Shown here: positions 8,572-64,000 of the stretch, piece after piece | Layout of the letters: each line of letters starts with the position of its first letter | Position numbering within the stretch: position 1 is the first letter of the stretch | NCBI RefSeq assembly: GCF_019973775.1 | Contig: NZ_AP025032.1 | Coordinates: forward strand, 4,244,001-4,308,000 | DNA from: Aureimonas sp. SA4125 | GTDB lineage: Bacteria > Pseudomonadota > Alphaproteobacteria > Rhizobiales > Rhizobiaceae | Reading direction: 5' to 3' | Length of the DNA stretch: 64,000 bases | The notes under the pieces: model-generated | The model's input: the letters and a program-made list of their open reading frames with translations, nothing else | The model's database searches: none | What the model was told of the DNA's origin: nothing | Made by a program: the position numbers and the translations under genes

Positions 8572-8602
8572 GTTCATCTCCCAAAGCTGAAGGTGTGATG
8601 GT

Positions 8603-9451: not shown

Positions 9452-9461
9452 GCGATCGTAT

Positions 9462-10550
9462 TCACTCCTTTGGAGGTGGGCCGGAGGACTCGCGAATGAC
9501 GATCTCCGCCTCGCTCTCCAGAGGATAATCGGGCTCGCGCTGCTCGACCCGGTCGACGATCAGCCGCGCCGCGCGGTAGCCGATCTCCTCGCCGGGAACG
9601 CGGACCGTGGTCACGGATACCGCCAGATGGCTCATGATCTCGATGTCGTCGTAACCGACGATCGACACCTCCTCGGGGACGCGTCGTCCGCTGGCGAGGG
9701 CCTCGAGCATGGCGCCGACGGCGAGCGGGGCATTGCCGCAGATGATGGCGGTCGGCTTTGGATCAGTGTCCATCACCTGCGCAAAGAGACGGCGCCCTTC
9801 CTCGATCGTCCACGTCCCGATCGCCAGGTGCTGGGGGCGGACCGCGAGGCCGCGCAAAGCCAGCGCGTCCCGGATCCCGGCAAGCCGGGCGCCGGCGCGG
9901 TCGTTGTTCTCGGTCTCCTGGGCGATCACCGCAAAGCGGACATGTCCGAGATCGGCCAGATAATCCGTCATCTTGACGAGGGCCTTGTGATTGTCCGGGC
10001 CGACGCAACTGCCGTGGAAGGCAGGTTCGTAGATGAAGGAGCTGATAAAGGGCAGGTTGCGCTGCTTCAGGAAGGGCAGCAGTTCGGGATGGTGGGCGAG
10101 ACCGACGAGGATGACGCCGTCGACCCCGCGTTCGGCGAACTTGCGGACCTGCTGAAACTCCAGTTCCGGGTCATATTCGGAACAGGCCAGGAGCAGCGTG
10201 TAGCCCACGTCGAGAAGCTGGCGCTGGATGGCGTTGGCAGCCCGGGGAAAGTCGCCGAGACCGAGGGTTGGAAACACGGCGCCGATGGTCTGCGAGCGGC
10301 CCGTCGTGAAGGCGCGCGCGCGCCCGTCCGGAATCCAGCCGAGCTCGGCGACGGCCAGGGAAATGCGCTCGCGCAATTCCGGAGAAACCACCTCCGGCCG
10401 GTTGATGGCGCGAGACACCGTCGCGGTCGAGACGCCCACGGCTCGCGCCACGTCACGAAGGCCGACGCCGCCCCTGTGGGGCGATTCCGATGCCTCGATC
10501 GCGCGCCGCGGCACTTCGTGCGCCTCGCCCCCCGCCTTCATCCTTGCCAT
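9462..10550 (-). CDS. LacI-family transcriptional regulator
   Basis: 362 residues. The LacI helix-turn-helix with hinge sits at ~30-75 (LRDVARAVGVSTATVSRAIN, then LAVAELGWIPDGRARAF), followed by a periplasmic-binding-protein-like effector domain ending in SIVGYDDIEIMSHLAVSVTT. The start at 10550 has AGGGGA upstream. It is the second gene of a minus-strand operon starting at 11265. Three near-perfect LacI-type operators (11283, 11403, 13136) lie at promoters around it, so it most likely represses its own operon and the divergent CoA-transferase and ABC operons. Confidence 0.93.
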   Translation of the reverse strand: MARMKAGGEAHEVPRRAIEASESPHRGGVGLRDVARAVGVSTATVSRAINRPEVVSPELRERISLAVAELGWIPDGRARAFTTGRSQTIGAVFPTLGLGDFPRAANAIQRQLLDVGYTLLLACSEYDPELEFQQVRKFAERGVDGVILVGLAHHPELLPFLKQRNLPFISSFIYEPAFHGSCVGPDNHKALVKMTDYLADLGHVRFAVIAQETENNDRAGARLAGIRDALALRGLAVRPQHLAIGTWTIEEGRRLFAQVMDTDPKPTAIICGNAPLAVGAMLEALASGRRVPEEVSIVGYDDIEIMSHLAVSVTTVRVPGEEIGYRAARLIVDRVEQREPDYPLESEAEIVIRESSGPPPKE

Positions 10551-50900: not shown

Positions 50901-51584
50901 CATCTTTTCGGGCGCCAGCACGTGATCGGCCAGATCAGCCGCAATCGCGCTTCTCGGCATGCCATCGAATTTCGCGGTTTCGGGCGACTGGACGAGAGCC
51001 ATACCGCCCTCCGCCCTGATATCTCTAAGGCCAGCGGTCCCGTTGCTGCCGGTTCCGGAAAGTACAATGGCGATCGCCCGCTGTTGCTGGTCCGCGGCGA
51101 TCGAGGAAAACAGGACGTCAACGGGATGGCGATGGCCGCGCGGCTCCTCGGGCGGCGAGACGTGCAGCCCGCCAGCGCGGACCCTCAGATCGGAATCCGG
51201 CGCGATCACATAGACATGGTTCGCCTCGATCCGCATGCCGTCCTCGACCTGGACGACCGGCATCGCCGTGTGGGCGCTGAGGATATGGGCCAGTTCGCTT
51301 TCACGCTTCGGGTCGAGATGAAGCACGACCACGAGAGCACAGCCGCTGTCGCTCGGCATCGCGTCGAAGAAGCCAATCAGGGCCTCGATTCCGCCCGCCG
51401 AGGCGCCGATGCCGACAATCGGCACTGCCGATTTCACGCCGGGATCGGCATCGCCGGCGGCAGAAGGCTCGTCCACCTCTGGCTGGAGGGCAACCTCGCT
51501 GCCTCCCTCATCCGCATAGCGGATCGGCGTCACCCTTGGCTTGGGCGCGGGGCGATTGCTCCCTCCTTGAGATTCGTCGGGCAT
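47940..51584 (-). CDS. CheB-CheR-PAS-HWE histidine kinase fusion
   Basis: 1214 residues. Order: CheB methylesterase (~55-235; GIGASAGGIEAL, VVLHLDP), CheR methyltransferase (~245-500; IWAPACSTGEEAYSLAML, VFATDAQEINLRRARAGIYP, LLSCRNFLIYL), PAS (~545-640), a long Glu-rich coiled coil (~665-760), two PAS domains (~765-1010) and an HWE kinase (~1015-1205; ELNHRIKNVMATIQA, ALHELATNAAKYGAL, WSESGGPAV). In the CheB part the usual catalytic Asp (GSDG) is Asn (TGSNGTAG, codon AAC), so esterase activity is doubtful. The ATG at 51584 follows a weak GGGAT; a TTG at 51599 is the alternative. Confidence 0.92.
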   Translation of the reverse strand: MPDESQGGSNRPAPKPRVTPIRYADEGGSEVALQPEVDEPSAAGDADPGVKSAVPIVGIGASAGGIEALIGFFDAMPSDSGCALVVVLHLDPKRESELAHILSAHTAMPVVQVEDGMRIEANHVYVIAPDSDLRVRAGGLHVSPPEEPRGHRHPVDVLFSSIAADQQQRAIAIVLSGTGSNGTAGLRDIRAEGGMALVQSPETAKFDGMPRSAIAADLADHVLAPEKMPETLLAFMRHGYVAATAEIETGLPGGQATIGRLLEFLRAHGRHDFSGYKPSTLKRRIHRRLGLRNIETLADYIEELRTNADEVTTLVGDLMISVTGFFRDADAWEALADLVITPMVAERETGASFRIWAPACSTGEEAYSLAMLVTELAEAAGKRFDLKVFATDAQEINLRRARAGIYPAAALADFPAGRLARFFEKLDGSYQVSKELRDMVVFAPQNLLRDPPFSRLDLLSCRNFLIYLEPDAQQKIIALCHFALRQGGHLFLGNAETIGRHEELFETVSKKWRIYRRLGSTRHDLLEYPPPRGRSEPRTMERLPPLDSEPIVSAADMARRALLERYAPASVLIDRKGRVLYFHGTTRDYLENPPGEPTRDLLTMARDGLAAKLRGAIREAWKDNRSVTVNARTRESRPGRAVAITAMPMPVSPQGSFLLVSFAPVVLETETSPSLVRREGGAASAGELALQEELSAIRAELQSTIEYQETTNEELKAANEEATSMNEELQSTNEELETSKEELQSFNEELNTVNGQLQHKISELETATNDLNNLLTGSETPTLFLDEKLCIRWFAPATRDLFDFVASDIGRPISHLARKFYDEHLLQDVETVLEKLSTIDAEVLSDASRWYVRRILPYRTQDNRIAGVVITFSDITDRKRAADAVNDARVYSETIVQTVQHPLLVLNGSLHVQTANKAFRKLFAVFDEDLEGQLIFDLGTGEWNNPPLRALLDTVLSLGKELHNFEFEQDFHTTGRRSMLLTASKLSQGGNREELILIAIEDITERKRFEEHREILVGELNHRIKNVMATIQAIASQTLGSATSMEEARSVFGSRLIALGKSHDLLTRENWAGAELRDIVSDTVEPHSGGRNRFRIDGPHLFLSPSVALSIAMALHELATNAAKYGALRSDKGEVHIVWQLRGDGRDRRLSLQWSESGGPAVVEPTRKGFGSLMVQRVLAAELGGKVDMAYSKLGVVCTIDAPMPDGQQRSEAG

Positions 51585-51609
51585 GGCCACACATCCCAAA
51601 ACCTACGTT

Positions 51610-51653: not shown

Positions 51654-52009
51654 CGCACGGTCGGGCCGCCTGGCCGTTCATTCAGCGAGGCTTCATGGCA
51701 CAGCTTCGCACGTCCCTCCACATGGACCAAGCGCATACTGCCCGCCCGCTCGGAGCGCCCCGGCAGACGCGAGAAGAAAATCTGTTCGAAGCCAGAGTTC
51801 GCTGCCAATGCGGAGATCGCCGGCCAGCGTCAGTACCGGCGACGTCCCCTCCTGTGACGAGAAGGTCACGGGCCCATCGGCAGCATTCCTGCGGCGATTG
51901 CCCGGAAGCTGCCAGTGGGCTGATCCGAGACGATGAAGCAGCGGCGGGACATCCCGCGCTGGACCTTGATGAAGTCGATCGCCTGGGCGAAGGAGGCTGG
52001 GCGCGGCGC
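51654..52009. other. Region between kinase and IS3 remnant, no intact gene
   Basis: A minus-strand stretch around 51880-51995 reads FAQAIDFIKVQRGMSRRCF and onward to a stop, but starts out of frame with the IS3 remnant and is not recognisable. It looks like fragments of broken genes left by transposition. Confidence 0.35.
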
Positions 52010-52223
52010 TTCGCAAGTTCCGCGTCGCGGTCTCGAGCCGTCTCTGCGGCCCCGCCCCCAAACGCTGTCGCCATGTTCTCGATGGCCAAGCGTTCCATTG
52101 GCCGACCGCGTTCGGATGCACCCCGCGCCTCTTGGCCAGCTTCGCCAGCGTCAGCTCGCCCCGGTTCGCATCCAGCGCGACCTTGGCCTTGATTTCCGCG
52201 CTATATCGCGCCCTCTTCGACAT
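52010..52223 (-). pseudogene. IS3-family OrfA remnant, frameshifted and truncated
   Basis: From ATG 52223 the minus strand reads MSKRARYSAEIKAKVALDA, then LAKLAKRRGVHPNAVGQWN, the helix-turn-helix of IS3-family OrfA. After NAVGQW the frame shifts and continues as ERLAIENMATAFGGGAAETA in another frame, a normal OrfA segment. The coding similarity then stops near 52010. No OrfB is present, so it cannot transpose. Confidence 0.85.
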
Positions 52224-52264
52224 TCTTGGATCATCCCTGTCAGCAGGCAATCCACTTTAAACAC

Positions 52265-52364: not shown

Positions 52365-52392
52365 TTGACAGTGCCAAGGCCGGGCGTATTGT
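52365..52392 (+). promoter_or_regulatory. Promoter of the 6-hydroxynicotinate-reductase-like gene
   Basis: A perfect -35 TTGACA (52365-52370), a 16-base spacer and -10 TATTGT (52387-52392). The MarR-type palindrome at 52391-52404 overlaps the -10, so a bound repressor would block transcription. Confidence 0.7.
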
Positions 52393-52404
52393 TAGCATAC
52401 AAAC
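52391..52404. promoter_or_regulatory. MarR-type operator N1
   Basis: GTTAGCATACAAAC; its reverse complement GTTTGTATGCTAAC fits the palindrome ATTYGTRTRCYAAT that recurs at 57305 and 58134. It overlaps the promoter of the reductase gene. Confidence 0.75.
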
Positions 52405-52435
52405 GTCATGTAAGATGCGGCGGCGGGTGCGATCG

Positions 52436-53926
52436 ATGTCCCAGGAAGAGCAACCCGGCACCCAGCTCGGCGAAGCGAAGGTCCGCTGCGACGCCTGCCC
52501 GGTGATGTGCATTATCAAGCCGGGCATGACCGGCGCCTGCGACCGCTACGCCAACCGGGCGGGCGAACTGATCCGCGTCGATCCGCATATCCTGCTCGAG
52601 CGCACCGTTTTGAAAGACGGGGGCCTCGTGCCCTTCAGCCAGCCGGCGGACTGGGACGGCACCATCCTCCCGCCGCCCGACCGCTTCGTCACCGCCATCG
52701 GCGCCGGCACGACCTATCCCGACTACAAGCCGGCTCCTTTCATCGTTTCCTCCGAGGTCGACGGCGTCGACATGGTCACCGTCGTCACCGAGGGCATCTT
52801 CAGCTATTGCGGCGTGAAGGTGAAGATCGACACCGACCGCTTCGTCGGTCCGGAGACGAACGCGGTGCGCGTCGCGGGCGAGATCGTCGGCCATGTCACT
52901 ACAGGCGAATACGGCTCGCAGATGCTCTCACTTGGCGGCGTGCACCATCTCACCGGCGGGTCGAAGAAGGAGGGTCGCGTCGCCTGCCAGGCGCTGCTCG
53001 ATCTCTGCAATGGCGGGGCCGTCGAGATGCACGTCGACGCAGGCGCGACGCTGGTGGTCCAGGCCGGCCATCCGCCGATCGTCAACGGCACGACCGAGCA
53101 GCGCATGCGCGTCGGCTGCGGCTCGGCGACGATCGGCATTTTTGCCCGACAATGGCTGGGGAAGGTCGACGAGGTGGTGGTGGTCGACGACCACATCACC
53201 GGCGTCCTCTCCGAGCACCAGGCCGGCAAGCTCCTCGACATTCCCCCCACCGGCATCCGGCTGAAGGGACGCCGCTCGACGCCCGGCCGCTATTTCCAGG
53301 TGGCCGAGCCCGGCACGGGCTGGGGCGGGACGAACATTTCCGATCCGCTGGATATCCTCGGCCCCTTCGACCCGAAGACGGCCTTTCCCGGCCTGCGCCT
53401 GCTGATGGTCTCCACCACCGGCGAGCATTCCGGCTATTATGAGCTCGACGAAAGTCTCGTACCGGTGGCGAAAGCCATGCCCACCGACCTCGTCGGACCT
53501 GTCGACAAGATCGCCGAGAACTGCGAGCCGGCCATGTGCACCGTGCTCTTCGTCGGCGGCGCTGGCGGCTCGCTGCGGGCGGGCGTGACCGATAATCCGG
53601 TCCGCCTCACCCGCTCGGTCAAGGAGGCGCTGACGAAGGTCACCTCGGGCGGCGCGCCGGTCTATCTCTGGCCGGGTGGCGGCATTACCTTTATGGTCGA
53701 CGTCACGCGCCTGCCCGCCAACGCCTTTGGCTATGTGCCGACCCCGGCCCTGGTCGCCCCGATCGAGTTCACTCTGCGCCTCGATGACTACGAGGCGCTC
53801 GGCGGCCACATGGACCATGTCCGCCCGCTCACCTCGCTCGGCGACACCGGGCGCCGACAGGTCGCTCCGCATGCGGAAAATCCCTGGCCCTTTGCTCGCG
53901 GCGTCGCGGACAGGCGCCCCAGCTGA
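52436..53926 (+). CDS. hnr: 6-hydroxynicotinate reductase-like Fe-S protein
   Basis: About 496 residues. An N-terminal Cys cluster CDACPVMC with a further Cys in MTGACDRYANR suits a [4Fe-4S] centre. The rest is rich in glycine motifs (GVHHLTGGSKKEGR, GTGWGGTNISDPLDILGPFD, LWPGGGITFM). It resembles proteins named 6-hydroxynicotinate reductase; the Eubacterium barkeri enzyme reduces 6-hydroxynicotinate to 1,4,5,6-tetrahydro-6-oxonicotinate and is an Fe-S flavoprotein. The enamidase-like gene nearby supports this. ATG 52436 is used; 52415 is in frame and possible. GCGSATIG resembles an ApbE flavinylation motif. Confidence 0.8.
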   Translation: MSQEEQPGTQLGEAKVRCDACPVMCIIKPGMTGACDRYANRAGELIRVDPHILLERTVLKDGGLVPFSQPADWDGTILPPPDRFVTAIGAGTTYPDYKPAPFIVSSEVDGVDMVTVVTEGIFSYCGVKVKIDTDRFVGPETNAVRVAGEIVGHVTTGEYGSQMLSLGGVHHLTGGSKKEGRVACQALLDLCNGGAVEMHVDAGATLVVQAGHPPIVNGTTEQRMRVGCGSATIGIFARQWLGKVDEVVVVDDHITGVLSEHQAGKLLDIPPTGIRLKGRRSTPGRYFQVAEPGTGWGGTNISDPLDILGPFDPKTAFPGLRLLMVSTTGEHSGYYELDESLVPVAKAMPTDLVGPVDKIAENCEPAMCTVLFVGGAGGSLRAGVTDNPVRLTRSVKEALTKVTSGGAPVYLWPGGGITFMVDVTRLPANAFGYVPTPALVAPIEFTLRLDDYEALGGHMDHVRPLTSLGDTGRRQVAPHAENPWPFARGVADRRPS

Positions 53927-53940
53927 CGGGAGTGGCAGCC

Positions 53941-54801
53941 ATGCGGCGCGGACCCCAGGTCGCCCTCCTTGCCGACGGCCGCCGGCTGCACCTGCAGGAC
54001 GGGCCGATCGACCTGATCGTCGAGGCCTTCGGTTCACCCGGTGCGGTCACCGCGGCCTACGAGGCAGCCATCCGGCGGCTGGATGGCCTGCTCGAGGCCC
54101 TCTGCCAGGAACTGTCGCTGCTGCGTGCACCGGTCACTCCCGGCAGTGCGCGTCCCCTTGATCCCGTCGGGCTGCGCATGCACGCTGCCGTCGCGCCGTA
54201 TGCCGCGGAAGCCTTTGTCACGCCGATGGCCGCCGTCGCCGGCGCGGTGGCCGACGCGGTCCTTGCCAGCATGGTCGCAGCCGCGCCGCTCGACCGTGCC
54301 TATGTGAACAACGGCGGCGATATCGCAGTGCACCTTGGCCAGGGCCAGCGGCTGGCCGCGGGCCTCGTCGGCCGCAGCGACCGCCCTTTCCTTTTCGGGC
54401 GCTGCGAGATCGCCGAGGGCGATCCCGTCCGCGGCGTCGCCACCAGCGGCCGGGGCGGCCGCAGTTTTTCGCTGGGGATCGCCGACGCCGTCACGATCCT
54501 GGCGCGTACCGCCGCGGAGGCCGATGCCGCGGCGACGATCGTCGCCAACGCCGTCGACCTGCCGGGTCATGCCGCGATCACACGGGTTGCGGCCGCGGAC
54601 TTGCAGCCGGACAGCGATCTCGGACATCGTCTGGTGACGCGTGGCGTCGGCCCACTTGCCCCGGACGAAATCGATCTGGCCCTGCGGCGCGGACTGCACA
54701 GGGCCGAACGGCTCGTCGGCGCCGGCCTGATCGAGGCCGCCGCGCTTCACCTTGCCGGCCAGACGCTCGTCACCGGCCGCCACGCGATCATCGCCGCTTG
54801 A
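53941..54801 (+). CDS. UPF0280 family protein (ApbE/FMN-transferase-like)
   Basis: 286 residues of UPF0280, whose fold is related to ApbE FAD:protein FMN transferases. Typical blocks: ADGRRLHLQDGPIDLIVEAF, AYVNNGGDIAVHLG, GVATSGRGGRSFSLGIADAV. GGGAG stands 8 bases before ATG 53941; a GTG at 53932 lacks a ribosome-binding site. It follows the reductase gene by 14 bases. The best guess is a role in maturing the reductase, for example covalent flavin attachment, but UPF0280 has no proven function that I know. Confidence 0.8.
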   Translation: MRRGPQVALLADGRRLHLQDGPIDLIVEAFGSPGAVTAAYEAAIRRLDGLLEALCQELSLLRAPVTPGSARPLDPVGLRMHAAVAPYAAEAFVTPMAAVAGAVADAVLASMVAAAPLDRAYVNNGGDIAVHLGQGQRLAAGLVGRSDRPFLFGRCEIAEGDPVRGVATSGRGGRSFSLGIADAVTILARTAAEADAAATIVANAVDLPGHAAITRVAAADLQPDSDLGHRLVTRGVGPLAPDEIDLALRRGLHRAERLVGAGLIEAAALHLAGQTLVTGRHAIIAA

Positions 54802-54813
54802 GGGAGAACAGAC

Positions 54814-55398
54814 ATGCCGGACATCCTGATGCGCAAGCGCATCCTCGTCGTCGAGGAGATCTTTCACGAAGGCGGCCCGCCAGCCGACAGGCCGCTGCGT
54901 CGCGGCGCCGTGCTCGCGGTCCTGCATAATCCCTATGCCGGGCGCTATGTCGAAGATCTCATGCCGTTTATGGACGACCTGAAGCCCTTCGGCCTGGAGA
55001 TGGCGAGAACGCTGCTCGCCGCCCTTGGCAACGATCCGGCGGCGATCGAAGGTTATGGCAAGGGCGCCATTGTCGGGGCAGGCGGCGAATTGGAGCACGG
55101 CGCGCTCTGGCATGCGCCGGGCGGCTACGCCATGCGCGAACTCCTCGGCGCGGCCCGCGCCATCGTGCCCTCGGCCAAGAAGGTCGGCGGCCCCAGCACG
55201 CGGCTCGACGTGCCGATCACCCACATCAATGCCTCCTACGTGCGAAGCCATTTCGACTCGATGGAAGTCGGCCTCTGCGACGGGCCGCGCGCCGACGAGA
55301 TGGTCCTCGTCCTTGTCATGACGACGGGCGCGCGCATCCATGCCCGCACCGGCGGGCTGAAGGCATCGGAGATCAAAGGCGAGGACGGACTGCGATGA
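54814..55398 (+). CDS. Amino acid synthesis family protein (PF06684/DUF1185), copy 1
   Basis: 194 residues. Motifs of this family: VVEEIFHEGGPPADRPLRRG, VLHNPYAGRYVEDLMPFMD, YGKGAIVGAGGELEHGALWH, VPSAKKVGGPSTRLDVPITH and the end GGLKASEIKGEDGLR. The family name comes from weak genetic links; its biochemistry is unknown. GAGGGAGAA precedes the ATG. The stop overlaps the start of copy 2 (ATGA), so the two probably form a complex or act in sequence. Confidence 0.8.
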   Translation: MPDILMRKRILVVEEIFHEGGPPADRPLRRGAVLAVLHNPYAGRYVEDLMPFMDDLKPFGLEMARTLLAALGNDPAAIEGYGKGAIVGAGGELEHGALWHAPGGYAMRELLGAARAIVPSAKKVGGPSTRLDVPITHINASYVRSHFDSMEVGLCDGPRADEMVLVLVMTTGARIHARTGGLKASEIKGEDGLR

Positions 55399-55979
55399 AG
55401 GCCACTATCCGCAAGATCGTGACGATCACCGAGGAAGTTGCGACCGAGATGGGCCGGCCCGTCGATCCGCCGACGCGGCGTGCCGCCGCCATAGCGGTCA
55501 TCGCCAACCCCTTTGCATCCACCTATGCCGAGGACCTCACGCCGCTGATCGAGATCGGCGAGGAGCTCGGCGCCCTCCTGACGGCCCGCGCCGTCGCGGC
55601 GCTCGGCATCGACGGCTCGCGCGTCCAGAGCTACGGCAAGGCCGCGGCCGTCGGCGAGAACGGCGAGCTCGAACATGCCGCCGCCATCCTGCATCCGAAG
55701 ATGGGGGCGCCGGTGCGCGCCGCGCTCGGCGGCGGCGCCGCGCTGGTGCCTTCGTCGAAGAAGCGCTGCGGCGTCGGCGGCACGCTCGACGTGCCGCTCG
55801 GCCACAAGGATGCGGCCTATGTGCGCAGCCATTTCGACGGCATGGAGATCAGGATCGCCGATGCGCCGCGCGCGGACGAGATCATGGTCGCCATCGTCGT
55901 CACCGACAGCGGCCGCCCGTTACCGCGCGTCGGCGGGCTGAAGCATGACGAGATCAAGGGCGAGGACGGGTTGCGCTGA
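55395..55979 (+). CDS. Amino acid synthesis family protein (PF06684/DUF1185), copy 2
   Basis: 194 residues, exactly the length of copy 1 and clearly paralogous: VIANPFASTYAEDLTPLIEI, YGKAAAVGENGELEHAAAIL, VPSSKKRCGVGGTLDVPLGH, and an almost identical end (GGLKHDEIKGEDGLR). The two differ mainly in the N-terminal 60 residues. It closes the operon reductase - UPF0280 - copy 1 - copy 2. A pathway role after ring opening or in cofactor handling is inference only. Confidence 0.8.
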   Translation: MKATIRKIVTITEEVATEMGRPVDPPTRRAAAIAVIANPFASTYAEDLTPLIEIGEELGALLTARAVAALGIDGSRVQSYGKAAAVGENGELEHAAAILHPKMGAPVRAALGGGAALVPSSKKRCGVGGTLDVPLGHKDAAYVRSHFDGMEIRIADAPRADEIMVAIVVTDSGRPLPRVGGLKHDEIKGEDGLR

Positions 55980-56007
55980 GGTGTCGGTTGGGTTGGCGAG
56001 AGGCACC

Positions 56008-56029
56008 GGCGCCAAGTTTGATAGGCGCC
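56008..56029. terminator. Possible bidirectional terminator between convergent operons
   Basis: GGCGCC at 56008-56013 and 56024-56029 can pair across a 10-base loop, and a short T-run follows (TCGGTTTTA). It lies between the convergent ends of the PF06684 gene and the enamidase gene. Confidence 0.4.
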
Positions 56030-56036
56030 CTCGGTT

Positions 56037-57236
56037 TTACCCCGCCACGACACTCGGCAGTTTCTCCGCCGGCGGGGTGTTGCGGCTGCGGGAGGAGCGC
56101 ACGATACCGTCGATGACGGTCATGCCGATGCCCGGCAGATCGCCGAGTTCGATCGAATGCAGGAAATCGCGCCCGGCCGAATGCTGCGCCTTGTCCATGA
56201 AGACGAAGTCGGCGGCGCGGCCGACCTCGATCAGCCCGCTGTCGAGGGCGCGGATGCGGGCGGTGTTGCCGGTAGCGAAGCAGAAGGCGGTTTCGGCCTT
56301 GACGTCGCCGAGGGAGGACAGCATCGAGATCATCCGGATGATGCCGAGCGGCTGCACGCCCGAGCCGGCGGGTCCGTCGGTGCCGAGCATCACGCGGTTG
56401 AGCTCGCCCATCTCGCTGGCGATCCGCAGCGTATAGAGCGCGGCGCGTTCGTTGCCGTTGTGGACGAGTTCGAGGCCGCGCTTGCAGCCTTCGCAGATGC
56501 AGCGGATCTCCTTGTCCGGCAGTGCCGTGTGTCCGCCGTTGACGTGGCCAATGACGTCGGGATCGACCTCCAGCACCACGTCGGCATCGATCAGCCCAGA
56601 GCCCGGGATCGACGGACCGCCGGTGTGAATGGTGGAATTGAAACCGTGCTTTCGGGCCCAGGCGACCATCTGGCGGCCGGTCGCCCCGTCCTTGACGCCG
56701 CCAAGCCCGACCTCCCCGAGGAGATGCACGCCGGCATCGGCCATTTCCTTGAAATCGGCCTCGACCATTCCGGGCTCGATCACCGGCGCGCCGGCCAGAA
56801 CCTTGACCCCGCTCGGCCGGTAGCCGGTGAAGATGCGCTGGGCATAGATCGCCATCGCCTTCAGGCCGACGATATCGCGCGGCCGGCCGGGGGTGTGGAC
56901 CTCGCCGGCCGAGATCATCGTCGTCACGCCGCCATGCAGGGACGAGTCGATCCAGTTCAGCTGGCTCTGCCGTGGCGTCCAGTCGCCCGAAACCGGGTGG
57001 ACGTGGCTATCGACCAGTCCGGGCACGACCACCGTGCCATTGGCGTCGATGACACTGTCGGCCTCGCCGAGATCGAGATCGACCGCCTTGCCGATGCCGG
57101 TGATGCGCCCGCCGACCGAAACGATCGTGTCGGCATCGAGGATGGGCTGGCGGATGTCACCTGACAAAAGCAGGCCGATATTGCGGATCACGAGCTTCTC
57201 GTTGGCACCCGCCGCCGGCTGAACGTCATGCGCCAT
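56037..57236 (-). CDS. ena: Enamidase-like amidohydrolase
   Basis: 399 residues of the amidohydrolase superfamily, strongly reminiscent of Eubacterium barkeri enamidase: NIGLLLSGDIRQPILDADTI, the metal motif VDSHVHPVSGDWTPRQ, SSLHGGVTTMISAG, bridging Glu in LLGEVGLGG, HTGGPSIPGSG, GHVNGGHTA, Asp in GTDGPAGSGVQPLG and the ending RSRNTPPAEK. Enamidase hydrolyses 1,4,5,6-tetrahydro-6-oxonicotinate, opening the ring to 2-formylglutarate and ammonia. AGGGAGAGAAG precedes the ATG. It is divergent from marR with an operator between them. Confidence 0.88.
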   Translation of the reverse strand: MAHDVQPAAGANEKLVIRNIGLLLSGDIRQPILDADTIVSVGGRITGIGKAVDLDLGEADSVIDANGTVVVPGLVDSHVHPVSGDWTPRQSQLNWIDSSLHGGVTTMISAGEVHTPGRPRDIVGLKAMAIYAQRIFTGYRPSGVKVLAGAPVIEPGMVEADFKEMADAGVHLLGEVGLGGVKDGATGRQMVAWARKHGFNSTIHTGGPSIPGSGLIDADVVLEVDPDVIGHVNGGHTALPDKEIRCICEGCKRGLELVHNGNERAALYTLRIASEMGELNRVMLGTDGPAGSGVQPLGIIRMISMLSSLGDVKAETAFCFATGNTARIRALDSGLIEVGRAADFVFMDKAQHSAGRDFLHSIELGDLPGIGMTVIDGIVRSSRSRNTPPAEKLPSVVAG

Positions 57237-57304
57237 GGTCTTCTCTCCCTTGCCTCTGCCGTCCGGTCGTTCAGCACGCGCCCGCTTCGCAACGCACTTT
57301 GGTT

Positions 57305-57318
57305 ATTGGTACACAAAT
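57305..57318. promoter_or_regulatory. MarR-type operator N2 in the ena-marR divergent region
   Basis: ATTGGTACACAAAT; reverse complement ATTTGTGTACCAAT, a near-perfect match to ATTYGTRTRCYAAT. It lies 68 bases upstream of the enamidase start and could control both ena and marR. Confidence 0.75.
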
Positions 57319-57555
57319 GACCTGGACAGGCAATCGGGATGATTTTCGCGCAATCTCTCCTTGGACCGGCGAGGGCGCGACCCTGCGCTCCAACCTGCCC
57401 TCATCTGCCCGGATTGCCGCCGGAATCCCACCCCTCCGGCGGACGGCACCGGACGGCGGGCGCGGTCGTCAGATCAGCAGCATCTGGCGCGACGCCGCCG
57501 CAGCGTGGCGCGTCGCCCCCTGTCGCGCACCCTGTCTCTGAGCATAGACTGCCGC

Positions 57556-58011
57556 ATGGAGAATCGATTGGACATCAAACCCGGCCCGGCGAGCGAGAGC
57601 GACGACTACGCCCTCGACACGCAGGTCGGCTTCGTCCTTCGCCAGGTGCAGCAGCGCCATTCCATCCTCTTTGCCGAACTGTTCGGCGGCGACCTCACGC
57701 CGACGCAATGGGCCGTCCTCGCCAAACTCGGAGAGATCGGCGAATGCTCGCAGAACCTGCTCGGGCGCTACACGGCGATGGACGTGGCGACCATCAAGGG
57801 CGTGGTGCAGCGCCTTTTCGAGCGCGGCCTCCTCACCCGCCGTCCCGACCCAGATGATCGGCGGCAACTGCTGATCTCGATGTCGCCGGACGGGAACGCT
57901 CTGTTCCGGCACCACCTTCCGAACGCTTCCCGCGTGTCGGAAGTCACGCTGGCACCCCTCACCGCGCCCGAACGCGCGCGGCTTCTGAGCCTCCTCGCCC
58001 GGCTGCGATAG
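57556..58011 (+). CDS. MarR-family transcriptional regulator
   Basis: 151 residues. The winged helix-turn-helix region is at ~45-115 (LTPTQWAVLAKLGEIGECSQ, MDVATIKGVVQRLFERGLLT, with the wing RRPDPDDRRQLLISMS). MarR repressors act as dimers on short palindromes and are released by aromatic ligands. Such a palindrome is found at three promoters of this island, and the gene lies in its centre. The natural effector may be nicotinate, 6-hydroxynicotinate or a downstream acid. Confidence 0.92.
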   Translation: MENRLDIKPGPASESDDYALDTQVGFVLRQVQQRHSILFAELFGGDLTPTQWAVLAKLGEIGECSQNLLGRYTAMDVATIKGVVQRLFERGLLTRRPDPDDRRQLLISMSPDGNALFRHHLPNASRVSEVTLAPLTAPERARLLSLLARLR

Positions 58012-58113
58012 CGTTGGAACCGTCCCGACGCCGGCTATACGAGTTGCCGCGCTGCGAAATCCGCCCGGTGCCATGCTGCACTGAACAATAAATAGGCGCG
58101 CCGAAAAAGTGGC

Positions 58114-58144
58114 TTGACGGGAGGCACAGCATCATTCGTATACT
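58114..58144 (+). promoter_or_regulatory. Promoter of the importer/dehydrogenase operon
   Basis: -35 TTGACG (58114-58119) and -10 TATACT (58139-58144) with a 19-base spacer, slightly long. Operator N3 covers the -10. Confidence 0.55.
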
Positions 58145-58147
58145 AAT
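58134..58147. promoter_or_regulatory. MarR-type operator N3
   Basis: ATTCGTATACTAAT, the best match to ATTYGTRTRCYAAT of the three sites. It overlaps the -10 TATACT of the operon that begins with the binding protein at 58218. Confidence 0.8.
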
Positions 58148-58217
58148 GGTACTGGCAGCCATCGACCGATCCGAAACGCTCCGACCCGTCGGGCACACCG
58201 CGCAGATGAGGGCACCC

Positions 58218-59447
58218 ATGACGAAGACGTTTTCCCTATCGAAGCTTTTCGCCGGTCTGGCCACGGGCCTCGCCCTCACCGCCGCAACGGTCGCGGCGTC
58301 CGCTCCCGAAGCAGTCTCGGCCGAGATCAAGGTCGGCGAGATCAACAGCTATTCCGCCCTGCCCGCCTTCACCGAGCCCTACCGCATGGGCTGGCAGCTG
58401 GCGGTCGAGGAGATCAACGCGGCGGGCGGCATCAAGGGCGACGACCTCGTCGTCATTTCCAAGGACGATGGCGGCAAGCCGGGCGGTGCGATCAGCGCGG
58501 CGAACGAGCTCGTCTCGCGCGACGGCGTCGTTCTGCTGACCGGCGGCTTCTTCTCCAATCTCGGCCTGGCGATCTCCGACTTCGCCAAGCAGAAGAAGGT
58601 CTTCTATCTCGCCGGCGAGCCGCTGACCGACGCCATCACCTGGAGCCAGGGCAACAAGTACACCTTCCGCCTTCGGCCCTCGAACTACATGCAGGCGGCC
58701 ATGCTCGCCGAAGAGGCGGCCAAGCTCCCGGCCAAGCGCTGGGCGACGATCGCGCCGAACTACGAATACGGCCAGTCGGCGGTCGCCATCTTCAAGCAGC
58801 TGCTGCAGAAGGCCCGGCCGGACGTCGAGTTCGTCACCGAGCAGTGGCCGCCGCAGGGCAAGATCGATGCCGGCGCCGTCTCCCAGGCGATCGCCGCGGC
58901 CAAGCCCGAGGCCATCCTCAACGTCACCTTCGGCGCCGATCTCGTCCAGCTCGTGCGCGAAGGCACGACGCGCGGTCTCTTCAAGGACGTCTCCGTCGTC
59001 AGCTTCCTCACCGGCGAGCCTGAATATCTCGACCCGATGAAGGCCGAGGCGCCGGTCGGCTGGATCGTCACCGGCTATCCCTGGTACGCCATCGAGACGC
59101 CAGCCCACGATGCCTTCGTGAAGGCCTACCAGGCGAAGTTCGACGACTATCCGCGCCTCGGCTCGGTCGTCGGCTATGCCGAGATGATGACCATCGCCGC
59201 TATTCTCAAAAAGGCCGAGACGACCGAAGTCGACGACCTCGTGGCCGCGGCCGAAGGCATCAAGGTGGACACGCCCTTCGGGCCGATCGAGATGCGCGCC
59301 ATCGACCACCAGTCGACGCTCGGCGCCTTCGTCGGCACCACGGCGGTCAAGGACGGCAAGGGCGTGATGGAGAATTTCAGCTATCGCGACGGCGCCGACT
59401 ACCTGCCCTCGGACGAGGAAGTGAAGACGCTTCGGCCGCAGGATTGA
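58218..59447 (+). CDS. ABC transporter substrate-binding protein, branched-chain amino-acid type
   Basis: 409 residues with a signal peptide (FAGLATGLALTAATVAASAP). Type I periplasmic-binding fold: IKVGEINSYSALPAFTEPYR, INAAGGIKGDDLVVISKDDG, WATIAPNYEYGQSAVAIFKQ. ATG 58218 has GAGGG in front. It is the first gene of the importer operon controlled by N3. Given the enzymes around it, nicotinate or a related pyridine carboxylate is the likely ligand. Confidence 0.9.
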   Translation: MTKTFSLSKLFAGLATGLALTAATVAASAPEAVSAEIKVGEINSYSALPAFTEPYRMGWQLAVEEINAAGGIKGDDLVVISKDDGGKPGGAISAANELVSRDGVVLLTGGFFSNLGLAISDFAKQKKVFYLAGEPLTDAITWSQGNKYTFRLRPSNYMQAAMLAEEAAKLPAKRWATIAPNYEYGQSAVAIFKQLLQKARPDVEFVTEQWPPQGKIDAGAVSQAIAAAKPEAILNVTFGADLVQLVREGTTRGLFKDVSVVSFLTGEPEYLDPMKAEAPVGWIVTGYPWYAIETPAHDAFVKAYQAKFDDYPRLGSVVGYAEMMTIAAILKKAETTEVDDLVAAAEGIKVDTPFGPIEMRAIDHQSTLGAFVGTTAVKDGKGVMENFSYRDGADYLPSDEEVKTLRPQD

Positions 59448-59449
59448 CC

Positions 59450-59466
59450 CCGGCGCCGGGCGCCGG
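59450..59466 (+). terminator. GC stem-loop after the binding-protein gene
   Basis: CCGGCG / CGCCGG stem with a 5-base loop directly after the stop, no T-run. Probably an attenuator or RNA-stability element like those after the binding proteins at 14173 and 34816. Confidence 0.45.
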
Positions 59467-59502
59467 CCCGGCTCCCCCCATGCTCGTTCCGGGGATCGCC
59501 TG

Positions 59503-61395
59503 ATGGCCTTCATCGTGGTTCAATTTCTGACGGGCCTGGCCAATGCGGCTTCGCTCTTCCTGGCGGCCTCGGGCCTGTCGCTGATCTTCGGCGTCACCCG
59601 CATCGTCAATTTCGCGCATGGCGCCTTCTACATGCTCGGCGCCTATGTCGCCTACAGCCTGACGACGCGGCTGGACGGCGCCCTCGGCTTCTGGGGCGGC
59701 ATTGTCGTCGCCGCCGGCTTTGTCGCTCTGCTCGGCACGCTGCTCGAAATGACGCTGCTCAGGCGCATCTACAAGGCGCCGGAGCTGTTCCAGCTGCTCG
59801 CCACCTTCGGCGTGACGCTGATGGTGGAGGATCTCGTCATCCTCGTCTGGGGCCCGCAGGATCTCCTCGGCCCGCGCGCGCCGGGCCTTGCCGGCGCCGT
59901 CGAGGTGATGGGCCTGCCGGTGCCGACCTACGACCTTCTCCTGATCGCCCTCGGCCCGCTGGTCCTGGCCGGCCTCTGGCTCCTGATGCACCGGACACGC
60001 TGGGGCGTTCTGGTGCGTGCGGCGACCGAGGATCGCGACATGGTCGCCGCGCTCGGCGTGAACCAGAAATGGCTGTTCACCGCGGTCTTCACCCTCGGCG
60101 TCTTCCTCGCCGCCTTCGGCGGCGGGTTGCAGATCCCGCGAACGGCCGTCACCCATCTGATGGATCTCACCATCATCGTCGAGGTCTTCGTCGTCGTCGT
60201 CATCGGCGGGCTCGGATCGATCACCGGCGCCTTCCTCGCCGCGGTCCTGATTTCCGAACTCAACGCCTTCGGCATCCTCGTCTTCCCCGACATCTCTCTG
60301 GTGCTGATGTTCCTCGTGATGGCCGCCGTCCTGATCGTCCGGCCCTGGGGCTTTCTCGGCCGCCCGACCAAGCCCGACCGCCGACCGGCGGGCGCCGTCA
60401 GCCGGCCCTGGAAACCGCTGTCGCCGGCCCTGCAGGCGGCGGGTCTGGCGCTGCTGGTGGTCGCGGCGCTGATGCCGCTGGTGCTCGGCACCTACGGACT
60501 CGGCGTCGGCGCGCAGATGCTGATCGCCGTCATCTTCGCCGCCAGCCTGCAGTTCATGATGTCGACCGGCGGCCTCGATTCCTTCGGCCATGCCGCCTAT
60601 TTCGGCCTCGGCGCCTATGGCGCGGCGCTCGGCGTGCAATGGCTAGGGCTGCCGATGGAGCTCGCCCTCATTGCCGGCCCGCTGATGGGCCTGGCCGGTG
60701 CCCTCGTCTTCGGCTGGTTCTGCGTGCGCCTGTCCGGCGTCTACTTTGCCATGCTGACGCTCGCCTTCGCCCAGATCGCCTGGTCTGTCGCCTTCCAGTG
60801 GGTCGACGTCACCGGCGGCGACAACGGCATTCTCGGTGTCTGGCCGGCCGACTGGGCGTCCGGACCCGAGGCCTTCTACTGGCTGGCGCTCGTCGCGGCG
60901 ACGGTCTGCGTCGTGGTGCTGCGCCGGCTGACCTTCTCGCCCTTCGGCTACCGCCTGCGCGCTTTGCGGGATTCACCGACCCGCGCCGAAGCCATCGGCA
61001 TCGACCGTCGTGGCACGCAATACGCTGCCTTCGCCATCGCCGGCACGGCGGCGGGACTTGCCGGCGCGCTTTTCGCCTTCCTCAAGGGCAGCGTCTTTCC
61101 CGATGTCCTGTCCATTCCCTTCTCGATCGACGCGCTGGTGATGGTGCTGCTCGGCGGCGTCGCCACCGTTTCCGGAGCGGTCGTCGGGGCGCTGGTCTAC
61201 ACGCTCGCCTCGATCTGGCTGGTCAGCCAGACCGACCTGTCGCGCCTCGTCCTCGGTGGCCTCATCGTCTTCCTCGTGGTCGCCTTCCCGCAGGGGATCG
61301 TCGGCACGATCGCCGGGATGCGGCCTGTCGAGGCCTGGCGCGCCCGGCGGGGTGCCGCGACAAGCGGCCTCGTGGCGGCGGAGCCAAGACCATGA
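59503..61395 (+). CDS. Fused branched-chain-type ABC permease (LivH-LivM)
   Basis: 630 residues that join both permeases in one chain: a LivH-like half (~1-290; GVTRIVNFAHGAFYMLGAYV, RAATEDRDMVAALGV, VIGGLGSITGAFLAAV) and a LivM-like half (~310-610; MMSTGGLDSFGHAAYFGLGA, YRLRALRDSPTRAEAIGI, LLGGVATVSGAVVGAL). The other Liv-type importer in the window has two separate permeases. The stop overlaps the next ATPase start (ATGA). Confidence 0.92.
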   Translation: MAFIVVQFLTGLANAASLFLAASGLSLIFGVTRIVNFAHGAFYMLGAYVAYSLTTRLDGALGFWGGIVVAAGFVALLGTLLEMTLLRRIYKAPELFQLLATFGVTLMVEDLVILVWGPQDLLGPRAPGLAGAVEVMGLPVPTYDLLLIALGPLVLAGLWLLMHRTRWGVLVRAATEDRDMVAALGVNQKWLFTAVFTLGVFLAAFGGGLQIPRTAVTHLMDLTIIVEVFVVVVIGGLGSITGAFLAAVLISELNAFGILVFPDISLVLMFLVMAAVLIVRPWGFLGRPTKPDRRPAGAVSRPWKPLSPALQAAGLALLVVAALMPLVLGTYGLGVGAQMLIAVIFAASLQFMMSTGGLDSFGHAAYFGLGAYGAALGVQWLGLPMELALIAGPLMGLAGALVFGWFCVRLSGVYFAMLTLAFAQIAWSVAFQWVDVTGGDNGILGVWPADWASGPEAFYWLALVAATVCVVVLRRLTFSPFGYRLRALRDSPTRAEAIGIDRRGTQYAAFAIAGTAAGLAGALFAFLKGSVFPDVLSIPFSIDALVMVLLGGVATVSGAVVGALVYTLASIWLVSQTDLSRLVLGGLIVFLVVAFPQGIVGTIAGMRPVEAWRARRGAATSGLVAAEPRP

Positions 61396-62177
61396 CCGGG
61401 GCGCCCCTGCTTGAAGTCGAGCACCTGTCGAAGTCCTATGGCGGTGTGCACGCCGTGATCGATGTCGGTTTTTCGCTCCATGCGGGCGAGATGCTGGCGT
61501 TGATCGGCCCGAACGGCGCCGGCAAGAGCACCTGCTTCAACATGGTGAACGGCCAGATCCCGGCCGACACGGGCCGCATCCGCATCGGCGACCGCGACAC
61601 ACGGGGCCTGTCGCCGCGCCAGGTATTCCGCCTCGGCGTCGGCCGCACCTTCCAGATCGCCGAGGTCTTTCACTCTATGACAGTGCGCGAGAACGTCCAG
61701 GCGGTGCTGATGACGCAGGATACGGGGCTTGGCGGACTCTGGGGTGCCGCCGGCACCCGTCATGTCACCGCCGCGGACTCCGTGCTCGACCTGATTGGCA
61801 TGGCGGACATGGCCGAGCGTCCCTGCGCCGACATGGCCTATGGCGACGTCAAGAAGCTCGAGCTCGGCATCGCGCTTGCCGCCGGCCCAAAACTGCTCCT
61901 GATGGACGAGCCGGCGGCCGGCATGGCCCCGCTGGAGCGCGTCGCGCTGATGGCCCTTACCGCCCGCATAGCCCGGGAGCGCGGAATCGGCGTCCTGTTC
62001 ACCGAGCACGACATGGACGTCGTCTTCGCCCATGCCGACCGAATGATGGTGCTCGACCGCGGCCGGCTCATCGCGGAGGGCAGTCCTGAAAGCGTGCGAC
62101 GCGACCCGAGGGTCCGCGCCGTCTATCTCGGCGACGGCCGCGTCTACGACAGCGGTGAGAAATCGGTGCCCGCATGA
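61392..62177 (+). CDS. Branched-chain-type ABC transporter ATPase (LivG-like)
   Basis: 261 residues. Walker A GPNGAGKSTCF, the LivG segment GVGRTFQIAEVFHSMTVREN, a modified signature MAYGDVKKLELG, Walker B LLLMDEPAAGM and switch His in FTEHDMDVV. Coupled at both ends by 4-base overlaps. One of the two ATPases of the island's importer. Confidence 0.93.
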   Translation: MTGAPLLEVEHLSKSYGGVHAVIDVGFSLHAGEMLALIGPNGAGKSTCFNMVNGQIPADTGRIRIGDRDTRGLSPRQVFRLGVGRTFQIAEVFHSMTVRENVQAVLMTQDTGLGGLWGAAGTRHVTAADSVLDLIGMADMAERPCADMAYGDVKKLELGIALAAGPKLLLMDEPAAGMAPLERVALMALTARIARERGIGVLFTEHDMDVVFAHADRMMVLDRGRLIAEGSPESVRRDPRVRAVYLGDGRVYDSGEKSVPA

Positions 62178-62890
62178 CCGGACAGGCCAGGCTCTCCGTC
62201 ACCGCGCTGAACGCCTTCTACGGCCCGGCGCAAATCCTCTTCGACGTCGCCTTCGAGCTGTTGCCCGGCGAGGTCGTCGCCTTGCTCGGGCGCAACGGCG
62301 CCGGCAAGTCGACGACGTTCCGCGCCGTCATGGGGCTGAGTGTCCGGCGTGAAGGCGAGATCCGGTTCGACGGCTCGCTCATAACGGCACTTCCAACCTA
62401 TGCCATCGCCCGCCGCGGCCTCGGTTACGTGCCGGAGGACCGACGCATCTTCCGCGACTTGACGGTGGAGGAAAACCTGATGGTCGGCACCCAGAAAATG
62501 CGCGAGGGTGCCGCCGCCTGGACGCCGGAACGGCTCTACGCCCTCTTCCCAAACCTTGCCGAGATGCGGCGGCGACGCGGCGGCGAGATGAGCGGCGGGG
62601 AGCAACAGATGCTGACCATCGCCCGGACGCTGATGGGCAATCCCTCGGCCATTCTCCTCGACGAACCCTCCGAGGGCCTCGCGCCGAAAATCATCGAACA
62701 GATGGCTGACGCGATCCTGGCGATGAAGCGGGAGGGCCTCGCGATCCTGCTCTCGGAACAGAATCTGCACTTTGCGCGGTTGATCAGCAACCGTGCCTAT
62801 ATCCTTGAAAAGGGCCGCATTCGTTTTTCCGGCAGCATCGTCGACCTCGATGCCGACGCCGGTCTTCGCGACCAGTATCTGGCGGTGTGA
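62174..62890 (+). CDS. Branched-chain-type ABC transporter ATPase (LivF-like)
   Basis: 238 residues. Walker A GRNGAGKSTTF, GYVPEDRRIFRDLTVEENL, signature MSGGEQQMLTIAR, Walker B AILLDEPSEGLAP and the LivF ending LSEQNLHFARLISNRAYILE. The start overlaps the LivG-like stop (ATGA). Completes the importer; the dehydrogenase genes follow 7 bases later, so transport and first attack on the substrate are co-expressed. Confidence 0.93.
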   Translation: MTGQARLSVTALNAFYGPAQILFDVAFELLPGEVVALLGRNGAGKSTTFRAVMGLSVRREGEIRFDGSLITALPTYAIARRGLGYVPEDRRIFRDLTVEENLMVGTQKMREGAAAWTPERLYALFPNLAEMRRRRGGEMSGGEQQMLTIARTLMGNPSAILLDEPSEGLAPKIIEQMADAILAMKREGLAILLSEQNLHFARLISNRAYILEKGRIRFSGSIVDLDADAGLRDQYLAV

Positions 62891-62897
62891 GGGGGCC

Positions 62898-63392
62898 ATG
62901 TCGTCGAAGGTCGCGCGGCCGATCACGCTCCATGTCAACGGCAGCGACCACGTCGTCACCGTACCGCCCGACACTGCGCTTCTGAATGTGCTGCGCAATG
63001 ATCTCCGGCTGAACGGACCGAAATTCGGCTGTGGCCTTGGCCAATGCGGCGCCTGCACAGTGCTCGTCGACGGGCTGGAAGCGCGCGCCTGCACCATTCC
63101 GGTGCGGATCGCCGAGAACCGTACCGTCGTGACGCTGGAAGGGCTCGCCGTTGCCGGTCGCCCAGGCCTGGTGCAGCAGGCCTTCATCGATCACCAGGCG
63201 GCGCAGTGCGGCTATTGCCTGAACGGCATGATCATGGCCGTCACCGCCCTGCTCCGCCGCAATCCCCATCCCAGCGAAGCGGAGGCGCGCGAGGCGCTGC
63301 GCTACAACCTCTGCCGCTGCGGCACGCATGTCGAGATTCTCGCCGCCGTCGCCGACCTGACCGGCGCCCGCTCGCCAGAGGCCGGGCGCTGA
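62898..63392 (+). CDS. [2Fe-2S] subunit of a molybdenum hydroxylase, nicotinate-dehydrogenase-like
   Basis: 164 residues. Two [2Fe-2S] clusters: plant-ferredoxin type CGLGQCGACTVLVDG … ACTIPV (~48-73) and the C-terminal helical type CGYCLNGMIM … NLCRCGTH (~110-150). This is the small subunit of xanthine-dehydrogenase-family hydroxylases. It passes electrons from the Mo centre of the next gene. Its place after the importer and under operator N3 fits ring hydroxylation of nicotinate to 6-hydroxynicotinate. Confidence 0.92.
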   Translation: MSSKVARPITLHVNGSDHVVTVPPDTALLNVLRNDLRLNGPKFGCGLGQCGACTVLVDGLEARACTIPVRIAENRTVVTLEGLAVAGRPGLVQQAFIDHQAAQCGYCLNGMIMAVTALLRRNPHPSEAEAREALRYNLCRCGTHVEILAAVADLTGARSPEAGR

Positions 63393-64000
63393 TGGATCAG
63401 CGCGCGACGGAAAACAGGGCAGGAGCCGCGACCGACGCCGGCTCGCTCGCGATCGTCTCGCCGACCGTTGGTGCGCATGAGGAGATCTTTCTGTCGATCG
63501 ATGCGGATGGCGTGATCCGCGCCTTCAACGGCCATGTCGACCTCGGCACGGGCATCCGCACCGCCCTCACCCAGATCGTCGCCGAGGAGCTGGACGTCGC
63601 GCCGCAGCGGGTCGCGCTGTTCTTGGGCGATACCGCTCTGACACCCGACCAGGGGCCGACGATCGCCAGCGAAACGATCCAGGTCGCGGCCGTGCCGCTG
63701 CGCCGCGCCGCCGCGCAGGCCCGGCACCATCTGGTGCAGAAGGCCGCCATCCGGCTCGGCGTTGCGCCCGAGGCGCTGCGTCTGGAAGACGGGCTGTTTT
63801 TCGCCGACGAAACCAGCAATGCGCGGATCGGCTTCGGCGAGCTCGTCGGCGGCGAGACCGTCAGGCTGCGGCTCGTGCCCGACGATCGGCACCTGAAACC
63901 GGCCTCGGCCTATCGCCTCGTCGGCCGGTCGCTGCCGCGTCTCGACATTCCGGCCAAGGCCACCGGCGAGTTTACCTATGTCCACGACGTCCGGGTACCC
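63392..64000 (+). CDS. Molybdopterin-binding subunit of a molybdenum hydroxylase (3' end outside window)
   Basis: 203 residues are visible before the window ends. The start overlaps the small-subunit stop (TGATG). Segments FNGHVDLGTGIRTALTQIVA, LFLGDTALTPDQGPTIASE and a later DIPAKATGEFTYVHDV are typical of the IorB/NicB two-subunit type of Mo hydroxylase, which lacks a FAD subunit and often carries C-terminal cytochrome c domains. Whether those haem motifs exist here cannot be seen. Likely reaction: hydroxylation of nicotinate or a similar N-heterocycle. Confidence 0.88.
   Translation, partial: MDQRATENRAGAATDAGSLAIVSPTVGAHEEIFLSIDADGVIRAFNGHVDLGTGIRTALTQIVAEELDVAPQRVALFLGDTALTPDQGPTIASETIQVAAVPLRRAAAQARHHLVQKAAIRLGVAPEALRLEDGLFFADETSNARIGFGELVGGETVRLRLVPDDRHLKPASAYRLVGRSLPRLDIPAKATGEFTYVHDVRVP

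Follow-up and report, generated by a model that had tools for sequence, protein, structure and literature searches.

A putative nicotinate catabolism cluster of Aureimonas sp. SA4125 in which a 6-hydroxynicotinate reductase-like protein is paired with UPF0280

In 2006, Alhapel is said to have described a covalent flavin in the 6-hydroxynicotinate reductase (Hnr) of Eubacterium barkeri, and the first three genes of the nicotinate pathway were reportedly already seen in Proteobacteria. A 2012 study described a nicotinate cluster in Azorhizobium caulinodans, Bradyrhizobium japonicum, Rhodopseudomonas palustris HaA2 and Bradyrhizobiaceae SG-6C, and the accessible part of that paper gives its content as the first three steps, an ATP-binding cassette (ABC) transporter and two unknown proteins, with an SG-6C Hnr that is 42% identical to that of E. 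barkeri (PMC3511419). Here we analyse a cluster of this kind in Aureimonas sp. SA4125, which lies in a stretch of 64,000 nt (the window; NZ_AP025032.1, 4244001-4308000 of a 5.1-Mb genome), spans window positions 52365-64000 and runs to 66961 once the window is extended into the adjoining genome. It comprises hnr, a UPF0280 gene, two PF06684 genes, the enamidase gene ena, marR, an ABC importer of the branched-chain amino acid (BCAA) type, nicA and nicB, and very probably constitutes, as judged from sequence, an inducible operon group that takes up nicotinate, or a close pyridine-3-carboxylate, and degrades it reductively.

As such the cluster is ordinary and of an already described type, and an initial annotation that had read it from the DNA alone as a regulon for reductive nicotinate catabolism was correct; all of the parts it named were found, either where it had placed them or a few bases off. 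Its estimate of novelty was too high, since a cluster of the first three enzymes with the importer is already in print in the accessible part of PMC3511419. Those published clusters differ from ours in gene order and genus, and Aureimonas has two tandem PF06684 genes, of which 33 of 35 Bradyrhizobium-named loci have a single one. In our own comparison, Afipia and Bradyrhizobium loci share the cluster genes and their hydroxylase is NicAB-like. With the fermentation cluster of E. barkeri the likeness lies in the enamidase, whose solved relative 2VUN we take to be the E. barkeri enzyme. It extends to Hnr by way of the SG-6C protein (PMC3511419, accessible part). By contrast, the front enzyme of Aureimonas is a NicAB-type hydroxylase with haem c, distant from 3HRD, and a partial look at the flanks showed no fermentation-type lower enzymes adjacent to the cluster. 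What our analysis adds to the known cluster type is the co-occurrence of Hnr with UPF0280 and, judging from homology, a modular ring opening.

The cluster is not a chance grouping, because the same genes recur together in relatives. Among the best 80 named-genome Hnr loci out of a larger number found, with partners counted within up to 10 kb at E<=1e-15, UPF0280 accompanied Hnr in 78, the two PF06684 queries in 75 each, MarR in 67 and the enamidase in 45; NicA and NicB were counted in 67 and 64, tallies that also contain distant hits on a different type of hydroxylase. Several of these loci stop at contig ends. The proposed enzyme identities were borne out by a NicAB-type hydroxylase, a 2VUN-homologous enamidase and an Hnr whose relatives are so annotated. 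On the domains of NicA and NicB and the haem-c tail, a putative nicotinate hydroxylase gene is present: the small subunit combines Fer2 and Fer2_2, and the large one has permuted molybdenum (Mo) domains followed by C-terminal c-type haems, which is the NicAB-type architecture. Full-length NicB (1189 aa) contains MoCoBD_2 and MoCoBD_1, matches Ald_Xan_dh_C below threshold and ends in a cytochrome c tail, and the haem-c motifs sought by extending the window rightwards appeared as three CxxCH sequences at residues 807, 953 and 1089. In its tail NicB matches membrane-dehydrogenase cytochrome subunits (8GY3_A, E 1.9e-89), and its Mo part is a distant match to the solved nicotinate dehydrogenase 3HRD (E 9e-27). 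Comparison of the enamidase with characterised enzymes gave 2VUN at E 3e-109 over residues 14-394; its six presumed metal ligands, which we take to be HxH, Glu, His, His and Asp, all align with 2VUN, and these columns are invariant in 50 relatives, with 47-50 sequences covering each. Hnr has its closest named relative in Aureimonas glaciei, at 96% identity, and 16 of 25 listed plasmid records with Hnr carry the annotation "6-hydroxynicotinate reductase", the others being hypothetical or unannotated; going by this annotation of relatives, a 6-hydroxynicotinate reductase gene is present.

By family, then, the ABC importer would bring the acid into the cell, NicAB would hydroxylate C6 and pass the electrons to the respiratory chain, Hnr would convert 6-hydroxynicotinate to 1,4,5,6-tetrahydro-6-oxonicotinate, and the enamidase, as a close homologue of a solved enzyme, would open the ring to yield 2-formylglutarate and ammonia. 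The description of the set as complete-looking thus holds for uptake, control and these first three steps; it does not extend to the lower pathway, for which a partial look revealed no adjacent gene.

Within this set, Hnr and UPF0280 co-occur strictly. Hnr relatives, which at about 60% or more identity form a sharply bounded group, occur in 32 of 398 Pseudomonadota genomes and in 26 plasmid records, and UPF0280 (NF003322 over cut-off) occurs in the identical 32 genomes; this and our other cross-genome counts ignore relatedness among genomes. Two weak UPF0280 matches below the cut-off were both in genomes without Hnr, and the relatives in M. jannaschii and M. acetivorans likewise score below it. 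In a set of 100 loci, made up of the best 80 and 20 further ones, hnr and UPF0280 share a strand in 99 and are no more than 150 nt apart in 94, and the sole miss (L010) is a locus that stops 455 nt past the hnr match, at a contig end. On plasmids, UPF0280 was found in 27 records, among them the 25 listed records with Hnr; a 26th shared record (Paracoccaceae) was judged from organism counts. We found no Hnr-UPF0280 link stated in the literature searched for "UPF0280" or in the accessible part of a review of ApbE (PMC12052999). One replicon speaks against the pairing, namely the Hydrogenophaga sp. BPS33 plasmid NZ_CP044550.1 (L180), with four UPF0280 places and no Hnr match. At one of those places an IS1071 transposase and MarR and Rieske/reductase genes adjoin UPF0280, perhaps as a remnant.

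Hnr itself matched neither a Pfam nor an NCBIfam family at E<=0.001 and had no PDB relative that we could find, and its predicted model, of mediocre quality (predicted local distance difference test, pLDDT, 75.3), had no PDB fold match at E<=0.001. A weak GCV_T_C match reached E 0.0013 at best and was seen in 20 of 21 members. The protein has a Cys cluster near its N-terminus and a loop, DHITGVx[ST]EH at residues 252-261, that is present in 94 of 94 Hnr sequences. Two candidate flavin sites were rejected: DAGAT at about residue 201 is not conserved, and Thr232 of GCGSAT, a motif found in 91 of 94 sequences, is Ala in two relatives (L123 and L131). In one locus (L133) two overlapping stretches match Hnr, which gives the appearance of a split gene, and another (L056), titled Mycobacterium sp. 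KBS0706, has an Hnr cluster 60-79% identical to the Aureimonas sp. SA4125 one over the main genes and 36-42% over the hydroxylase; the title is perhaps wrong.

UPF0280, which we take to be the same family as COG2122, has the ApbE flavin-transferase fold in its predicted structure. The model (pLDDT 94.9) returned DUF375 2O34 as Foldseek rank 1, and ranks 1-39 were all DUF375 or ApbE/FmnB/Ftp flavin transferases, 14 of them at E<=0.001. Against a profile of 30 genomic ApbE sequences the protein scored a probability of 94.5 with the GGD, TSG and AD..(A)T motifs aligned, and among 97 UPF0280 sequences N.GGD and ATSG..GRS are invariant and DA[AS]A[TS] is found in 92. An Hnr maturase is our best guess for its role because of the strict pairing, the ApbE fold and the reportedly covalent flavin of E. 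barkeri Hnr, and it makes one strong lead: encoded beside hnr, UPF0280 would act on Hnr itself, and it is a serious possibility, if one just short of an even chance, that it handles or attaches the flavin. In a fuller version, which we advance a little more tentatively, it would be a cytosolic, His-less ApbE-type transferase for the Hnr flavin, possibly at loop 252-261, and Hnr with UPF0280 would form a portable core served by swappable hydroxylases and ring openers.

Measured against described ApbE transferases (PMC12052999, accessible part), UPF0280 is alike in predicted fold and in its GGD, TSG and AD..(A)T positions and unlike in that the His loop is deleted and the Hnr target lacks the exact acceptor motif. 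Several observations tell against a flavin transferase. Query-normalised TM-scores to ApbE types are just 0.30-0.49, and Pfam ApbE matches UPF0280 only at E 0.15. The loop with the catalytic His of ApbE (V. cholerae His257) is absent from the profile alignment, in which the V. cholerae residues were placed on UPF0280 by spacing and by eye. The ApbE target motif, given as D-x-x-[ST]-G-A-[ST] (PMC12052999, accessible part), occurs in its exact form in 0 of 94 Hnr sequences, and, as far as the accessible part of PMC5764234 goes, COG2122 homology seemingly does not reach the flavin-binding region of ApbE.

By analogy with the last of these sources, UPF0280 could instead be a sulfur or Fe-S maturation factor that would serve Hnr by persulfide chemistry: COG2122 is needed together with DUF39 and NIL/ferredoxin in homocysteine synthesis, for which a persulfide suggestion is cited (PMC5764234, accessible part), and both the N-terminal Cys cluster of Hnr and the missing His loop of UPF0280 would fit. 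We consider it unlikely, as DUF39 (PF01837) is found in 0 of 398 genomes, so that the partner system differs, and UPF0280 shares its fold and its GGD, ATSG and ADAAAT positions with ApbE. A role of UPF0280 in homocysteine synthesis itself was rejected here on the same absence of DUF39. The one-to-one pairing and adjacency would also fit a structural or flavin-carrying subunit of an Hnr complex, which also seems improbable; the E. barkeri Hnr was reportedly purified and characterised as a single protein, which we count against it. UPF0280 has relatives in methanogens, albeit below the cut-off, and COG2122, if the same family, occurs with DUF39 elsewhere (PMC5764234, accessible part), neither of which suits a subunit of Hnr. 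We retain action on the Hnr flavin as the working proposal for UPF0280.

The enzymes on either side of Hnr are exchangeable to a degree that bears on the substrate. The enamidase (E<=1e-60) was found in 20 of the 398 genomes, of which 18 belong to the 32 with Hnr and the other two, at 41-45% identity, lack Hnr. All 14 Hnr genomes without enamidase, one of them the source of the HyuA query, encode a HyuA-type hydantoinase/oxoprolinase of 62-100% identity; the same HyuA clade is present in two of the 18 genomes with both Hnr and enamidase (81-82%, from a genus shared with several of the 14), and the other 16 have HyuA at 46% at most or none at E<=1e-100. The Hnr loci on which the HyuA observation bears include L122, L125, L126, L133, L178 and L182. 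HyuA was first seen beside hnr and is not always its neighbour: some genomes have it on a different contig or at another site of the chromosome. HyuA/B of at least 60% identity lies near hnr in nine of 104 loci, none with an enamidase there, two of the nine matches being partial. By homology, then, ring opening is modular and falls to an enamidase or to an ATP-dependent HyuAB-type hydrolase. A second hydroxylase type, with a flavin adenine dinucleotide (FAD) subunit and a fused [2Fe-2S]/Mo protein, is found in 21 of 104 loci when counted by its FAD subunit. A ferredoxin-NADP reductase gene was observed in 40 of the 104 Hnr loci, the one that supplied the reductase query included (e.g. L179 7899-8672 and L182 7009-7836); it is a plausible electron source, and neither the window nor its extension gave a match.

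Some of the evidence weighs against reading the Aureimonas cluster as a nicotinate pathway. Hnr also occurs with the second hydroxylase type and without enamidase, and therefore Hnr alone is no proof of nicotinate. As for the lower pathway, the next 23 kb, in which the open reading frames (ORFs) were read and ten compared with Pfam, contained no obvious 2-formylglutarate or glutarate enzyme, and three of six acyl-CoA dehydrogenase matches fell below the cut-off of the glutaryl-CoA dehydrogenase model NF045552, possibly not the right one for an aerobe; no other lower-pathway search was made. The substrate could be a related pyridine in place of nicotinate itself, such as a nicotinate with a substituent or halogen or a different 2-pyridone, since Hnr keeps company with two types of hydroxylase and two modules for ring opening and may thus reduce more than one ring compound, and one residue of the MarR pocket is unlike that of BpsR. 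We regard this as very unlikely for our cluster, which contains the same components as the published nicotinate clusters (PMC3511419, accessible part), a close 2VUN homologue and three of the four 6-hydroxynicotinate-binding residues in its MarR protein, and we keep nicotinate or a close pyridine-3-carboxylate as the preferred reading.

Two findings support the claim that the genes form a regulon: a conserved palindrome precedes hnr, ena and the importer/nicAB genes, and the MarR protein has the Tyr, the Arg and one His of the BpsR pocket. The palindrome was first spotted by eye in three intergenic sequences, in which a script found no perfect palindromes with 7-nt arms, and was then tested against dinucleotide shuffles. 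Its exact form, CRTTnGTRYACnAAYG, occurs 120 times in 67 of the 100 loci (0 in five shuffles); with up to one mismatch there are 187 sites in 87 loci (0, 2 and 1 in shuffles) and with up to two mismatches 241 sites in 94 loci (27, 36 and 23), a comparison that is optimistic because these very loci supplied the consensus. None of the 187 sites lies inside a matched gene body and 171 lie within about 370 nt upstream of a cluster gene start, the nearest downstream start being that of hnr for 72, nicA for 55, ena for 34, marR for seven and the binding protein for three, with none for 16. BpsR contacts 6-hydroxynicotinate through Tyr15, His23, Arg26 and His32 (PMC6837509, accessible part). In the 83 of 100 loci that had a MarR match, the equivalents, mapped by eye, are Tyr in 83, Arg in 83 and His32 in 80. 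We propose that a BpsR-type MarR repressor would bind the shared palindrome and be released by 6-hydroxynicotinate.

Some results run counter to this regulatory model. The window alone has two palindromes against a chance mean of 0.34, and six of 100 shuffles also had two; genome-wide, a slightly narrower pattern with up to one mismatch gave three forward matches against two in a backwards control, and of the three, two are in the cluster and the hnr site, with two mismatches, is not among them. The palindrome is weak within a single genome, and its strength is therefore its conservation across loci. The closest PDB match of the MarR protein is another regulator, 2NNN (E 4.3e-42), followed by BpsR (6PCP/6PCO; 6PCP E 8.6e-24), and only three of the four pocket residues are kept, the His23 position being Phe here and, among the 83 relatives, Phe in 79 and Tyr in four. 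Compared with BpsR/NicR regulation (PMC6837509, accessible part), then, the MarR family and the Tyr, Arg and His of the ligand pocket are alike and the change of His23 to Phe is a difference. The 6.1-kb region contains two sigma-70-like sites, where shuffles gave 0.6, and the one at 52365 might account for the position at which the initial annotation began the cluster. The features are collected in Table 1.

Table 1. Predicted features of the Aureimonas sp. SA4125 cluster, in window coordinates.
Feature	Position	Strand	Remarks
Sigma-70-like promoter of hnr operon	52365..52392	+	TTGACA-16-TATTGT; 10/12 matches; -10 overlaps operator
Putative MarR operator TGTTAGCATACAAACG	52390..52405		2 mismatches to CRTTnGTRYACnAAYG (by eye); ~30 nt 5' of hnr start
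hnr, 6-hydroxynicotinate reductase-like	52436..53926	+	496 aa, 10 Cys
UPF0280 (NF003322) protein	53932..54801	+	ApbE-type fold (predicted)
PF06684 (AA_synth, DUF1185) protein 1	54814..55398	+	E 7.5e-70
PF06684 protein 2	55395..55979	+	close to solved SPO0826 (2QTP)
ena, enamidase (amidohydrolase)	56037..57236	-	divergent from MarR gene
Putative operator TATTGGTACACAAATG	57304..57319		between ena and marR
MarR regulator	57556..58011	+	BpsR-like
Putative operator CATTCGTATACTAATG	58133..58148		exact; 5' of importer
Periplasmic binding protein	58218..59447	+	Peripla_BP_6
Fused double permease	59503..61395	+	630 aa; two BPD_transp_2 stretches
ABC ATPase 1	61392..62177	+	
ABC ATPase 2	62174..62890	+	
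nicA, [2Fe-2S] subunit	62898..63392	+	Fer2 and Fer2_2 domains
nicB, Mo subunit	63392..64000, ends 66961 in genome extension	+	first 203 aa in window; permuted Mo domains + tri-haem c domain

The nicotinate and vitamin B6 pathways both pass through aminomethylene or formyl dicarboxylates, and our guess is that the PF06684 proteins process enamine or formyl acids. The family has a chorismate-mutase-like fold with no function assigned in the accessible part of PMC2954203. PF06684 was undetected in six of the 100 loci, four of which (L010, L055, L070 and L080) stop soon after hnr or UPF0280, and the idea that two PF06684 genes go strictly with the enamidase was rejected, as 20 loci with a NicAB-type hydroxylase and enamidase have one. 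A third copy was observed in the same genome at 2568964-2571639 (L174, about 6965-9639), adjoining an alpha/beta hydrolase and a full-length match (E 1.1e-227) to 3ALJ, the 2-methyl-3-hydroxypyridine-5-carboxylate oxygenase of vitamin B6 ring opening, with an IS66-type transposase close by.

Around the cluster, all but one of the ten downstream ORFs compared with Pfam had a match. They comprise a Mutator-type transposase (extension 74426-75634, +), transporter binding proteins, a metallo-beta-lactamase-fold protein, HbpS-like and SDR proteins, an IclR regulator, a polysaccharide deacetylase and a piece that is M20 peptidase-like. By eye, a second BCAA-type importer lies within the 23 kb downstream, and upstream there are a transposase-like ORF piece (window 51693-52250, -) and, just before the cluster, a large CheB/CheR-like sensor protein with an apparent histidine-kinase end (window 47940-51599, -).

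The cluster would show, in one genome, how an aerobe breaks down vitamin B3 by a reductive route of the anaerobic type. The conserved palindrome offers a means to find the regulon in other genomes, and the exchange of enamidase for HyuA would explain ring opening in Hnr bacteria that lack an enamidase. Finally, the strict pairing of Hnr with UPF0280 supplies a concrete partner for a conserved protein, and this partner is itself an enzyme for which we found no solved relative or Pfam family.

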